Of a stretch of 64,000 bases of DNA, positions 15,748-19,911 are shown one piece after another. How positions within the stretch are numbered: the first letter of the stretch is position 1; each line of letters starts with the position of its first letter. This DNA is from Algimonas arctica (GTDB lineage Bacteria; Pseudomonadota; Alphaproteobacteria; Caulobacterales; Maricaulaceae). Both the position numbers and the translations under genes were made by a program. Under the pieces are notes generated by a model that was given only the letters and a program-made list of their open reading frames with translations, was not told the origin of the DNA and did not search any database. The stretch is taken from assembly GCF_014652695.1 (NCBI RefSeq), contig NZ_BMZH01000001.1, positions 310,001 through 374,000 on the forward strand, given 5' to 3'.

Positions 15748-17269
15748 ACACCCGACGGATTGGTCTCCGGAATTAGACCAAAAGACTCAGCGCGAGGCGT
15801 TTGCTGAAGACATGGGCGGGGCGGATAAAGTCGCGCGGCAAAAAGGCCGAGGCAAGCTGACAGCGCGCGACCGGATCGACGGTATTTTGGATGATAGCAG
15901 TTTTCGAGAAATCGGAAAACTCGCAGGGTCTGGGACGTATGATGAGGACGGCAAGCTCATTCACTCTGCCGCGTCAAATTTTATCTATGGCCAAGGCGCG
16001 GTCGGCGGTCGTCCTGTCGTCGCATCGGCGGATGATTTTACCGTGCGCGGCGGTGCCTCCGATGCTGCGATTTATCGCAAGTTCATTCACGCCGAAAAAA
16101 TGGCGTCTGAATTCGGGATACCCCTCATTCGTATGATCGACGGAACGGGCGGTGGGGGATCCGTCAAATCGCTGGAACAAATGGGCTATACATATGTGCC
16201 GGAAGTGCCGGGCTTCGAAGTGATTGTCGAAAACTTACAAACGGTCCCCGTTGTTGCTTTGGCATTGGGGCCGTGCGCAGGTCTGGGGGCCGCCCGCGTT
16301 GTGGCATCGCATTACTCCGTCATGGTCAAAGGCCTATCGCAAGTGTTCACGGCCGGCCCAGCCATTGTCGCGCCGCTCGGGGAAAGCCACGACAAAGAAG
16401 GACTCGGCGGCTCAGAAATTCATACACGTAACGGTGTCGTCGACGATGAAGCGGTTAGCGAAACCGATGCGTTCGCCCGTGCCCGCGCGTTTCTGTCTTT
16501 CTTGCCGAGCCGGGTTGGTGATCCATTGCCCTACGTCAAATCAAGCGATGATCCGTCCCGGACCGATGACAGTCTTCTGTCCATTGTTCCGCGGGACAAA
16601 TATCAAGCCTATTCGATGCGGACAATCCTACGCTCTGTGATGGATGAGGGCAGTGTTTTCGAGATTGGACGCAAGTGGGGCCGTGCCGCAATTACGGCGC
16701 TGGCACGACTAGATGGCTGGCCTGTCGCGGTTATTGCGTCCGACCCAAGCTTTCTAGGCGGGTCTTGGACGGCGGATACAGCGCAGAAGGTCAAACGCCA
16801 TGTGGATTTGGCCCAACAATTCGGACTTCCCATTGTGCATTTGGTTGATAATCCGGGTTTCATGATTGGTTTGGAGGCTGAGAAAGCAGCGACCATTCGG
16901 CGCGGCGTCGAAACAATGACGGCAATTTATACGGCGTCAGTGCCGTGGGCGAGCGTGATCATTCGTAAGGCTTATGGTGTCGCGGGCGCCGCGATGAGCG
17001 ATCACACGCGTTATCAATATCGGGCGGCATGGCCGAGCGGCGATTGGGGCAGCCTTCCCATCGATGGCGGTGTCGAAGTCGCGTATCAGTCCGAACTGGT
17101 CGCGAGCGATGACCCCGCCGCAGAACTGGCCGCAATCAAAGCGCGCTTGGCCGAAGTCTCATCGCCGTTCCGAACTGCGGAACGCTACGCGGTCGAAGAT
17201 ATCATTGATCCGCGTGAAACGCGCCCGTTTCTGACCAACTTCGTGAAGTTGGCCATGATACGACGCTAG
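15740..17269 (+). CDS. Acyl-CoA carboxylase carboxyltransferase (beta) subunit
   Basis: A 509-residue carboxyltransferase of the PccB/MccB-like family that transfers CO2 from biotin to an acyl-CoA. Two crotonase-like halves are visible: the first with 'ARQKGRGKLTARDRID' and the oxyanion Gly run 'DGTGGGGSVKSL', the second with 'LVDNPGFMIGLEAEKAATIRRG' and 'KAYGVAGAAMSDHTRYQYRAAWPSGDWGSLPIDGGVEVAY'. No biotin carboxylase or biotin carrier gene is in the window, so the partner is elsewhere or the protein is a decarboxylase-type relative. It overlaps the SDR gene by 8 bp and shares CTAG stops with the convergent flavin oxidoreductase. Confidence 0.92.
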   Translation: MPKHPTDWSPELDQKTQREAFAEDMGGADKVARQKGRGKLTARDRIDGILDDSSFREIGKLAGSGTYDEDGKLIHSAASNFIYGQGAVGGRPVVASADDFTVRGGASDAAIYRKFIHAEKMASEFGIPLIRMIDGTGGGGSVKSLEQMGYTYVPEVPGFEVIVENLQTVPVVALALGPCAGLGAARVVASHYSVMVKGLSQVFTAGPAIVAPLGESHDKEGLGGSEIHTRNGVVDDEAVSETDAFARARAFLSFLPSRVGDPLPYVKSSDDPSRTDDSLLSIVPRDKYQAYSMRTILRSVMDEGSVFEIGRKWGRAAITALARLDGWPVAVIASDPSFLGGSWTADTAQKVKRHVDLAQQFGLPIVHLVDNPGFMIGLEAEKAATIRRGVETMTAIYTASVPWASVIIRKAYGVAGAAMSDHTRYQYRAAWPSGDWGSLPIDGGVEVAYQSELVASDDPAAELAAIKARLAEVSSPFRTAERYAVEDIIDPRETRPFLTNFVKLAMIRR

Positions 17270-18357
17270 TACAGCGTCGTTAGCGATTTGGCGTCATAGT
17301 CGCGCACTTCATCGTCGCGGCCTTCAAGCACTTTGGTCGCCCATTCGGGATCTTGCAAAATCGCACGGCCAACGGCGACAAGGTCGAACTCGTCTTTTTC
17401 CAACCGTTCCATCAAATCATCGAGGGAGCGCGCGGCGGAGTCTTCGCCTTGAAACGCCCCAATAAAGTCTGACGATAGGCCCACACTGCCGACAGTGATG
17501 GTCGGCAGACCTGTTAGCTTTTTGGCCCAACCCGCGAAATTCAAATTTGATCCATCAAATTCCGGTTCCCAGAAGCGACGTTGTGAACAGTGCAAACAGT
17601 CCACCCCAGCATCAGCAAAAACACTCAGCCAATCGTCCATTTCCTGCGGGGTTTCAGCCAGACGGGCAGAAAAATCCTGTTGTTTCCACTGCGAAATACG
17701 AATGATGATCGGCATATCGGGGCCGACGGCTTTTCGGCATTCACGAATGATGTCCGCGGCAAACGTCGAGCGTTCAGCCAAACCGCCGCCAAACCTGTCT
17801 TCGCGCTTGTTCATCACGTCCCAGAAGAACTGGTCAATGAGATAGCCGTGGGCCGCATGAATTTCGATTGCGTCAAAGCCAAGCTCTTTGGCGTAGGCGG
17901 CTGAGCGCGCATAGCTATTGACCATATCGGCGACATCTTCGTCGCTCGGCGCGGGCATAACAGCTGTTCCTGTATGGGTAACGCCGGACGGGCTATCAGA
18001 CGGCGCGTCTGGGTAATGGCCAGTGCCGGGTTTCCGCATCATGCCCACGTGCCAGAGCTGCGGTGCAATGAAGCCACCTTCGGCTTTCACGCTTGCGACG
18101 ACGTTTTTCCAACCTGCAAGGGCTTCGTCATAAAATTTCGGGACGTTGGAATCATTCCCGGCGGCTTGACGGTCCGTGACCGTGCCTTCGGTCACGATAA
18201 GACCGACATGATTAGCCGCGCGACGAGCATAGTAATCCGCGACGTTTTGGCCGGGAACGCCGTTGGGTGAGAAACTCCGCGTCATGGGGGCCATGACGAT
18301 GCGGTTGGGAAGGTCGAGCGAGCCGAGTGAGTAGGGCTTAAAGAGGGGATTTGTCAT
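17266..18357 (-). CDS. NADH:flavin oxidoreductase (old yellow enzyme family)
   Basis: An FMN-dependent TIM-barrel enzyme that reduces activated alkenes with NAD(P)H. Features are 'LPNRIVMAPMTRSFSPNGVP' near the start, the substrate-gripping His pair in 'IEIHAAHGYLIDQFFWD', and the FMN phosphate site 'ITVGSVGL...AVGRAILQDPEWA'. Length about 363 residues is usual. ATG at 18357 (MTNPLF) fits better than the one three codons earlier; neither has a strong Shine-Dalgarno. The physiological substrate is unknown. It is tail to tail with the carboxyltransferase gene. Confidence 0.92.
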   Translation of the reverse strand: MTNPLFKPYSLGSLDLPNRIVMAPMTRSFSPNGVPGQNVADYYARRAANHVGLIVTEGTVTDRQAAGNDSNVPKFYDEALAGWKNVVASVKAEGGFIAPQLWHVGMMRKPGTGHYPDAPSDSPSGVTHTGTAVMPAPSDEDVADMVNSYARSAAYAKELGFDAIEIHAAHGYLIDQFFWDVMNKREDRFGGGLAERSTFAADIIRECRKAVGPDMPIIIRISQWKQQDFSARLAETPQEMDDWLSVFADAGVDCLHCSQRRFWEPEFDGSNLNFAGWAKKLTGLPTITVGSVGLSSDFIGAFQGEDSAARSLDDLMERLEKDEFDLVAVGRAILQDPEWATKVLEGRDDEVRDYDAKSLTTLY

Positions 18358-18429
18358 GAGAGCCATGTGGGCAAAGCAATGCCTCCGCGCAAGTCTGCAC
18401 GAAGGCTTATCCGTCCTGCGATATTGTCG

Positions 18430-18735
18430 CTACACGCCGATAATGTCCCGCATAGCACTTAGGTATTTGAGCCAAGCCTTCCGACCTGTAGCGGTCAGAT
18501 GGACGAGGGTCTGTGGGCGTTTGCCTTTATATCCCTTTTCCAACTCAACATAATTGGCGCTTTCGAGTTTCGTGAGATGTGTCGAGAGGTTTCCATTTGT
18601 CGTCCCGGTCTTTTCCGTGAGCTCTGGGAAGCTCGCGGGACTGACTGCAGAGAGATAAGCCATCACAGCCAATCGGATGCGCCCATGAATGACCTCGTCA
18701 ACTTGGCTGATGTCAAATTCCGGTTCTCTCGACAT
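18430..18735 (-). CDS. Winged-helix transcriptional regulator (HTH_34-like)
   Basis: A 101-residue winged-helix protein of the small MarR/ArsR-like group (HTH_34). It has 'VIHGRIRLAVMAYLSAVSPASFPELTEKTGTTNGNLSTHLTKLESANYVELEKGYKGKRP' with the recognition helix around 'NGNLSTHLTKLE' and a wing with K/R/P, then 'TLVHLTATGRKAW'. No sensor domain exists. It is the second gene of an operon behind a membrane protein (1 bp overlap, TGATG) whose promoter region contains two near-identical palindromes; I infer autoregulation and control of the divergent DUF2141 gene. Confidence 0.9.
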   Translation of the reverse strand: MSREPEFDISQVDEVIHGRIRLAVMAYLSAVSPASFPELTEKTGTTNGNLSTHLTKLESANYVELEKGYKGKRPQTLVHLTATGRKAWLKYLSAMRDIIGV

Positions 18736-19343
18736 CAGCGCGCTCTACGGTTTTCGATGAAGGATGGGATCACGCCTGAGAGGATGAGGAGAGCGCCCGC
18801 GACGAAATACATTTCGGGTTGCCGGACCATCATCAATGTTACCGCTGTGGCCACGCCGCTCATGACCGCGCTAAATTTAAGGTAACCATAGCCGGTCAAC
18901 TTCGCGAGCATGCCGTTAATCACGGCCGAGATGGCAAAGGCTGCGGGGGGGATAAAGTTGAAATCGACGGCCTCCGTCTGTCCCGTCGCTGCGCCAATGA
19001 CCAATGAAATCGCAAAGGTCGAAATCATTATAATGCCAGCGATCCAAGCGCCTTCGGCCGCACGATTAGCAAAGCTATGACAGCCAGGCTTCGTTGATTG
19101 CCCTCGGCTCAGTATAATTGTTAAAACTGTCCCAACGATGCCCTGCGTCGCCCAAATAAGTCCTGTCATCGGGGCGGGAATACCAATCCATCCCGCGACA
19201 ACCGCACCATGTATCATGAGTGCGACTGTTGTCAGGCTGGCCCACATCAAACCGACCGGACCACCCAACAGGGGAGCTTGCTCGCCCGCCTGAGCAATAC
19301 GGGTCGCATTTTCTAAGTCCTGAATAAGGGTCTCATTTGTCAT
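18735..19343 (-). CDS. Multipass membrane protein of unknown function
   Basis: A 202-residue protein with about six hydrophobic segments and a short soluble N-terminus (residues 1-25). I recognise no enzyme motif. Neighbouring is informative: it is translationally coupled to the HTH_34-like regulator and divergent from a secreted DUF2141 protein. In many bacteria small HTH_34 regulators sit with such membrane proteins, which suggests a signal-sensing or target role, but this is inference. The ATG at 19343 is followed directly by the likely operator region upstream. Confidence 0.7.
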   Translation of the reverse strand: MTNETLIQDLENATRIAQAGEQAPLLGGPVGLMWASLTTVALMIHGAVVAGWIGIPAPMTGLIWATQGIVGTVLTIILSRGQSTKPGCHSFANRAAEGAWIAGIIMISTFAISLVIGAATGQTEAVDFNFIPPAAFAISAVINGMLAKLTGYGYLKFSAVMSGVATAVTLMMVRQPEMYFVAGALLILSGVIPSFIENRRAR

Positions 19344-19360
19344 GTTCAGACTTTCTATTA

Positions 19361-19422
19361 AGTTTGTATTTCAAACTACAGTTGACATGCAAACTCAATT
19401 TTGTCAAGTTTGATTTACAAAC
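19361..19422. promoter_or_regulatory. Paired palindromes, likely operators of the HTH_34-like regulator
   Basis: Two matching inverted repeats lie in the 100 bp between the divergent genes: AGTTTG-TATTT-CAAACT at 19361-19377 and GTTTG-ATTTA-CAAAC at 19408-19422, plus a lone half-site CAAACT at 19390-19395. Centres are 46 bp apart. The shared GTTTG-N5-CAAAC core, the AT-rich spacer and the location fit dimer-binding sites of the winged-helix protein encoded two genes away; this assignment is inference. Confidence 0.75.
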
Positions 19423-19443
19423 CTAATTGTAAAGGAGACGAAA

Positions 19444-19911
19444 ATGGTTGCGATACTACAAAAAGGACTGGCCATAGCCCTCACAACAGGACTGACCCTA
19501 TTGATGGGGGTAGAGTCCGCTTTGGCAGTGGATGACACCGCGGTAGCTGTTCCGGTGACAATCACCCTAACCGATGTGATGGAGACAAATGTGCCACTCT
19601 ATATCTCGGTTCAGACAGAGGCTGAATATCAGTCCATGAAAGGTCGAGGGGCGGTCCTTAAAGAAACCAGCGCCGGAACGATCACTCAAACGGTTCAGCT
19701 TCCAGAGTCGGGCGATTATGCCGTCACAATATGGCATGATCTCGATAATGATGGTCGGTTTTCGATGACTGACCGTTACGAGGTGTTGGATGGGTGGGGA
19801 ACATCAGGCCAAGCGCGTCGGGATGCCGCCCCAACGTTCCAACAGTCCAAAATTAATGTTCCGACTTATGGGGCGTCTGTGACGATCGCGATGATCTATC
19901 CAAAACACTAA
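19444..19911 (+). CDS. DUF2141 secreted protein
   Basis: A 155-residue protein with a signal peptide (hydrophobic run to about residue 28, ending 'ESALAVDD') and a DUF2141 beta domain. The family mark is the 'IWHDLDNDGRFSMTDRYEVLDGWGTSGQ' region (around 96-125), with an Asp/Asn cluster like calcium-binding loops. Family members are periplasmic or exported; the function is unknown. AGGAG lies 8 bp before the ATG. It is divergent from the membrane-protein/regulator operon and shares the palindromic control region. Confidence 0.85.
   Translation: MVAILQKGLAIALTTGLTLLMGVESALAVDDTAVAVPVTITLTDVMETNVPLYISVQTEAEYQSMKGRGAVLKETSAGTITQTVQLPESGDYAVTIWHDLDNDGRFSMTDRYEVLDGWGTSGQARRDAAPTFQQSKINVPTYGASVTIAMIYPKH

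Follow-up and report, generated by a model that had tools for sequence, protein, structure and literature searches.

What kind of system is encoded where a small winged-helix regulator follows a membrane protein gene at once, and where matched palindromes separate this pair from a divergent DUF2141 gene? The locus lies in the window, i.e. the whole stretch of 64,000 nucleotides (64 kb) of the Algimonas arctica genome which was analysed. The original prediction had described it as a self-contained module of three genes, in which the membrane protein or its ligand controls the regulator and the regulator represses in both directions. The underlying observation holds, with the corrections given below. 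The features are the following:

17266..18366, minus strand: Old Yellow Enzyme (Oxidored_FMN) gene, next downstream of the regulator and on the same strand
18430..18735, minus strand: HTH_34 winged-helix regulator, 101 aa (HTH_34 Pfam match)
18580..18597, minus strand: codons 47-52 of the regulator, encoding Asn47 to Thr52 where the recognition helix begins; residues 47 and 52 covary with the putative operator
18735..19343, minus strand: membrane protein, 202 aa, N-terminal helix, GG linker and six TM helices (structure model)
19362..19376, no strand: candidate operator palindrome GTTTG-TATTT-CAAAC, exact match, proximal and extra, near the predicted transcript start of the membrane gene
19380..19394, no strand: degenerate copy of the candidate operator, 2 mismatches
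19382..19387, plus strand: TTGACA, predicted -35 of the DUF2141 promoter
19402..19407, minus strand: TTGACA, -35 hexamer predicted for the membrane/HTH promoter on the strength of the consensus and of its conservation among relatives
19405-19410, plus strand: CAAGTT, weak -10 of the predicted DUF2141 promoter
19408..19422, no strand: candidate operator palindrome GTTTG-ATTTA-CAAAC, exact match, distal, one half of the conserved pair
19444..19911, plus strand: DUF2141 protein, 155 aa, an N-terminal signal-like stretch followed by a beta-sandwich (Pfam match)

The HTH_34, membrane and divergent DUF2141 genes are all where they had been placed, and the announced overlap of one base is genuine: the stop codon of the membrane gene ends at 18735, where the ATG of the HTH gene begins. 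The Old Yellow Enzyme gene, which lies 63 bp past the regulator, was outside the coordinates originally considered. The regulator matches HTH_34 (PF13601) over the entire profile (1-80 of 80) with 93.6 bits, above the gathering score (cut-off 27), and stays under the cut-off both for the PadR model (16.7 bits, cut-off 27) and for the ArsR metalloregulator subfamily model NF033788 (27.3 bits, cut-off 55). The Pfam scan found no LytTR domain in it, its domain being HTH_34. It has no ligand domain, in agreement with the claim that it is devoid of a sensor domain, and does not have any cysteine. The 202-aa membrane protein, which had been left unassigned, indeed has no match in Pfam or NCBIfam, while the DUF2141 protein scores 41.9 bits against PF09912, above the gathering score (cut-off 24.4).

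We searched 60 genomes of relatives with the membrane protein and found matches in 44 of them. Thirty loci were kept, including the window's own: the HTH gene directly follows the membrane gene in 29/29 of the others, and the intergenic gap between the two is of -11 to +11 bases in 30/30. Across the 29 other loci the regulator identities are of 51 to 73%, those of the membrane proteins only of 25 to 42%. A search with the regulator only, in named genomes, confirmed 541 loci. In the best 80 of these 541, which were picked by HTH similarity alone, a homolog of the membrane protein is found directly upstream in 80/80, the match being partial in L052 and covering less than half of the tree columns in L049. 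These 80 loci come from Hellea, Litorimonas, Robiginitomaculum, Hyphomonas, Henriciella, Maricaulis, Parvularcula and others, together with some gammaproteobacterial MAGs. Because every locus chosen by its HTH has the membrane gene directly upstream, we conclude that, at the level of gene order, the true unit is the membrane/HTH pair, an obligate pair. The proposed three-gene synteny stands for this pair, which is constant, but not for DUF2141, which accompanies it in 16/94 distinct loci only; the three genes are not an inseparable trio. In L022, L024, L029 and L034, two membrane-protein genes stand in tandem ahead of the regulator.

The regulator was found in 225 of the 299 genomes of the window's order (E <= 1e-15) and in 16 of 289 genomes of the class at large (E <= 1e-12). 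Its frequency in the order makes it look more like a core gene than like an accessory immunity gene. The module is also seen in gammaproteobacterial MAG loci (L052, L054, L056, L057, L062, L065 and L073; Porticoccaceae and others), of which 6/7 carry the AGTTTG form of the candidate operator. As these loci are nested among alphaproteobacterial ones in the tree, a transfer is suggested, by which the module would have moved between bacterial classes. Three further records, L109, L111 and L121, are titled Acidobacteria or Sulfopaludibacter, yet fall inside a Hyphomonas-like clade; they are probably wrongly binned contigs.

Since the 16 loci with DUF2141 are a minority of the 94 and are all of the non-Asp47 type (defined below), we regard DUF2141 as lineage-specific cargo of the putative operator. 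Elsewhere in relatives (30 DUF2141 loci examined), the GTTT site was found at 0/21 of the genes with a profile match, and one DUF2141 locus has a CTTT match. The structure model (pLDDT 81.4, from 12 sequences) is a beta-sandwich, and the protein is a probable exported one. Its weak pilotin- and starch-binding-domain-like neighbours were not taken as a guide to function. In the section of PMC5989583 which deals with it, DUF2141 is co-located with crtG and its function is given as unknown. In 11/29 other relative loci (12/30 in all) the regulator is likewise followed, on the same strand, by an Old Yellow Enzyme gene, which is probably a further cargo, co-transcribed with the regulator. At the same place and on the same strand, 11 Henriciella-like loci (L070, L076, L079, L081, L083, L086-L090, L118) have an exported beta-gamma-crystallin-like gene, and in 5 loci an MsrB-like gene comes after the regulator, both names resting on visual inspection of the sequences and not on a family search. 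It appears from these neighbourhoods that the switch is constant and that its cargo varies. One may speculate that the Old Yellow Enzyme and MsrB-like cargo hint at envelope redox or electrophile stress.

Two exact GTTTG-N5-CAAAC sites had been reported between the divergent genes, with no like sites noticed elsewhere. Both are present, at 19362-19376 and 19408-19422, and no other exact match occurs within the 64-kb window. Counted over the whole genome, exact matches number 6 and those of the reversed control pattern 5, so that the motif by itself shows no genome-wide enrichment. Outside the window there are four exact sites, each within a mechanically called reading frame and with a spacer that is G+C-rich or mixed, and the wider regulon which we sought genome-wide was not found (145 one-mismatch matches, 157 for the control). 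The notable feature is not the bare motif, it is that the motif occurs twice, at a distance of 46 bp, between genes that diverge. These two copies had been taken as the pair. A degenerate copy, overlooked until now, occupies 19380-19394, at 28 bp from the 19408 copy, and 28 bp is the commonest spacing in relatives (13 of the 21 loci with two AGTTTG-kind sites). The geometry conserved in relatives is consequently that of 19408 and 19380, and not that of 19362 and 19408; the 19362-19376 copy is an addition.

The conservation check which had been called for was run on the upstream regions of the relatives. Within 220 bp upstream of the membrane gene, a strict palindrome of either kind (GTTT or CTTT) was found in 85/94 distinct loci, to be compared with a mean of 0.02 and a largest value of 1 in 200 rounds of dinucleotide shuffles. 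In L022, L024 and L029, the paired sites, read by eye, precede the extra first membrane gene; L018, L040, L110 and L111 have a site with one or two departures; and in L049 and L052, among the 94 distinct loci, no site was found.

A sigma-70 scan reported no promoter in 19300-19500, so the promoter hexamers listed above were deduced from conservation. In loci of the Asp47 class, TTGAC precedes the CTTT of the palindrome by 25 bases in 41 cases and by 24 in 20, counted from its first base, and such a spacing is seen in 64/122 loci, which would put TACTTT at the -10 position. In the GTTT class, TTGAC is present in 18/40 loci, and in most of them (14 cases) it lies between the sites, 13 bases ahead of the promoter-proximal one; the 22/40 others have no TTGAC in the 150 bp examined. 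In the window, TTGACA is found on both strands between the sites, as expected for two divergent promoters under an operator. As for the claim that the regulator acts both ways, its geometric part stands, the sites overlapping promoter-like elements in both directions; repression would be a further step, for which the placement of the sites on predicted promoter elements speaks.

To which protein do these palindromes belong? We found that Asp47 of the regulator pairs with ACTTT[AG]-N5-[CT]AAAGT, and Asn, His or Gly at the same position with AGTTTG-N5-CAAACT. After extra loci were added, 173 distinct loci were scored, and residue 47 agrees with the arm in 165/165 of those which are classifiable. 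The 8 unclassified loci comprise four with Asp47, one with Asn47 (L052) and three Gln47 paralogs (L186, L197 and L198), at which no such palindrome was found. Among the four Asp47 loci, one has a mismatched site, and in three (L255, L256, L259) the usual palindrome is replaced by the same half-sites pointing outward (AAAGT..CTTTG or AAAGTACTTTA). At residue 52, Thr or Val tracks a G-C or an A/T-containing inner pair in 143/156. One of the peptide patterns of the locus search favours Asn or Asp at 47, which biases the residues sampled but not the palindrome paired with them. On a tree built without the recognition helix, residue 47 changes at least 3 times and residue 52 at least 8 times, and no significance was reached in sign tests on independent pairs (for residue 47, 2 independent pairs on starred branches). 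This shows a clean association arising from few independent events, and does not constitute a statistical proof. From the conservation of the palindromes and from the covariation of their arms with residues 47 and 52, we conclude that the regulator very probably binds them.

The membrane protein had been predicted to have six helices, and a confident AlphaFold model, calculated with 78 sequences from the window and the other loci (pLDDT 94.2, pTM 0.87), agrees with this: it contains a helix at residues 3-21 and then six more helices of TM length. The charges place the TM2-TM3 loop and the C-terminus in the cytoplasm, which would put the N-terminal helix there too. The most conserved parts include this helix and, above all, the GG linker before TM1. 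According to the model a single helix (3-21) precedes TM1, where a HAAS domain would have three. The Pfam scans of 30 and then of 78 homologs gave no family which was convincing or present in more than 2 members and no SdpI family, and DUF1700, DUF1129 and DUF1048 are absent from the matches listed for the 78 members (25 of the 26 families). Fold searches against solved structures found no match at E <= 0.001. VIA-align put TMEM45A on top (Z 10.8, 3.9 A, 170 residues) and also returned SatP (Z 9.1, 4.8 A, 157 residues); no function was taken from these likenesses, which may only reflect an arrangement that helical bundles have in common.

We therefore propose, and hold to be fairly probable, that the locus is an autorepressed two-gene switch leading from the membrane to the promoter, with the repressor under the control of the membrane protein. 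The genes of the six-TM protein and of the HTH_34 regulator would form one operon and be translated together. A dimer of the regulator would sit on the palindromes, over the -35 and -10 elements of two promoters, its own and the divergent one of DUF2141, and would repress both. The six-TM protein would bind the regulator through its cytoplasmic N-terminal helix and GG linker; it is this helix which may contact the regulator. A signal from the membrane or the envelope would make the six-TM protein take the regulator off the DNA, or release it, and the cargo would then be expressed, which here means the exported DUF2141 protein and probably also the Old Yellow Enzyme encoded downstream. The sequence itself shows the pairing, the conserved sites, their covariation with residues 47 and 52 and their position relative to hexamers of the -35/-10 kind, and from it DNA binding and repression, as opposed to activation, can be well deduced; the control exerted by the membrane protein and the nature of the signal are inferred.

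A regulator beside a transporter is a very common arrangement, and ArsR-family metal sensors are of the same size as our regulator. The locus could hence be of an ordinary local kind, the HTH protein sensing a cytosolic ligand and repressing DUF2141 together with a transporter-like membrane protein, which would be an effector and not a sensor. The channel SatP (5ys3) is among the Foldseek neighbours of the membrane model (TM-score 0.41, none of the neighbours having an E below 0.1), which goes in this direction. We nevertheless find this reading unlikely, given a regulator without sensor domain or cysteine which falls short of the ArsR model, and a cytoplasmic N-helix and linker which rank among the most conserved parts of the membrane protein. 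The other HTH_34 regulators also go against it. A second HTH_34 gene with a strong match lies on another contig of the same genome (L011, C5 207500-213500); it has Gln47 and comes after the gene of a 196-aa multi-TM protein, which may be distantly related to the membrane protein of the window (hhalign probability 78%, E 1.8e-05). No GTTT or CTTT palindrome was found upstream of this paralog, which is followed by an XRE-like regulator and a further membrane protein, both identified by eye. When this paralog is put together with others from the class and the phylum, a protein with at least 2 TM segments (by a simple hydropathy count) is directly upstream in 19/23 strong HTH_34 loci outside the module, L163, one of the four misses, being at a contig edge. 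MarR-like controls, which are weak matches from the same searches, have a multi-TM gene directly upstream in 1/18. The partners are diverse, with 2 to 7 predicted TM segments, six of them belonging to no Pfam or NCBIfam family, and such a diversity fits sensing by the partner better than a single transported substrate. HTH_34 thus seems, from these neighbourhoods, to be a family of membrane-coupled regulators.

The regulator might alternatively be an activator which the membrane protein keeps inactive, with positive autoregulation, as in the LytTR Regulatory Systems, which are two-gene systems of a regulator and a membrane inhibitor in the excerpts of PMC6193735 at hand. We judge this improbable: the inverted repeats overlap -10 and -35 here, which is the position of a repressor, whereas LytTR uses direct repeats upstream. 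That the pair is of the SdpI-SdpR kind, the membrane protein conferring immunity and at the same time serving as the receptor of an extracellular toxin or peptide, would follow the same logic of a polytopic membrane protein and a small autorepressor (PMC1626106, in the portion consulted) and is very improbable, with no SdpI family in the Pfam results for the 78 membrane homologs, no toxin-like neighbour that recurs when the adjacent genes are clustered, and a core-like regulator.

Returning to the autorepressed switch, our findings point to a widespread and little-described way of passing a signal from the bacterial membrane to genes. In the open-access literature, no paper on HTH_34 or PF13601 was found under the terms tried. 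We give an even chance to the broader proposition that the HTH_34 family is a general signalling dyad of Pseudomonadota, in which the regulator is translated after an orphan multi-TM protein with an N-helix, there is no phosphorelay, the cargo is lineage-specific and a two-residue code (47, 52) reads the DNA. If the switch is real, it gives a function to family-less six-TM proteins across a whole order, it accounts for HTH_34 regulators without sensor domains, and it defines a class of membrane-coupled regulators having the logic of two-component systems and no kinase.

How does the pair compare with known systems? The dyads of HAAS and PadR-like wHTH proteins, proposed as an alternative to two-component systems (mSystems 2024; PMC11237479, as far as its consulted portion goes), also have a stand-alone winged-helix regulator always beside a multi-TM protein, and the signal would be relayed by the cytoplasmic N-terminal part of the latter, as we propose here; they differ by their PadR regulator, which is HTH_34 in our case, and by a three-helix HAAS domain in place of one short N-terminal helix. 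In Bacillus subtilis, SdpI sequesters the autorepressor SdpR (same portion of PMC1626106), and these two form, as is proposed for our pair, a two-gene operon of a small autorepressor and a polytopic membrane protein. Judging by the name of the operon, sdpRI, the regulator comes first there, while the membrane gene is first here, and neither an SdpI match nor a toxin operon was seen in our case. The LytTR Regulatory Systems share with our proposed switch the two genes, regulator and membrane partner, the autoregulation and the absence of a phosphorelay; they have another DNA-binding family and, in the same excerpts of PMC6193735, direct repeats upstream of the -35, where we see inverted repeats on promoter-like hexamers. 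In Listeria, the PadR regulator LltR, a DUF1700 membrane protein and a DUF4097 exoprotein depend on one autorepressed promoter (PMC6624303, in the part which describes this operon), much like the HTH, membrane and DUF2141 genes; there the families are others, the regulator comes first and the exoprotein is inside the operon, whereas it is divergent here. With another DNA-binding family, no HAAS, no SdpI match and inverted repeats on its promoters, our pair belongs to none of SdpI-SdpR, HAAS-PadR and LytTR, and its proposed logic is like theirs.
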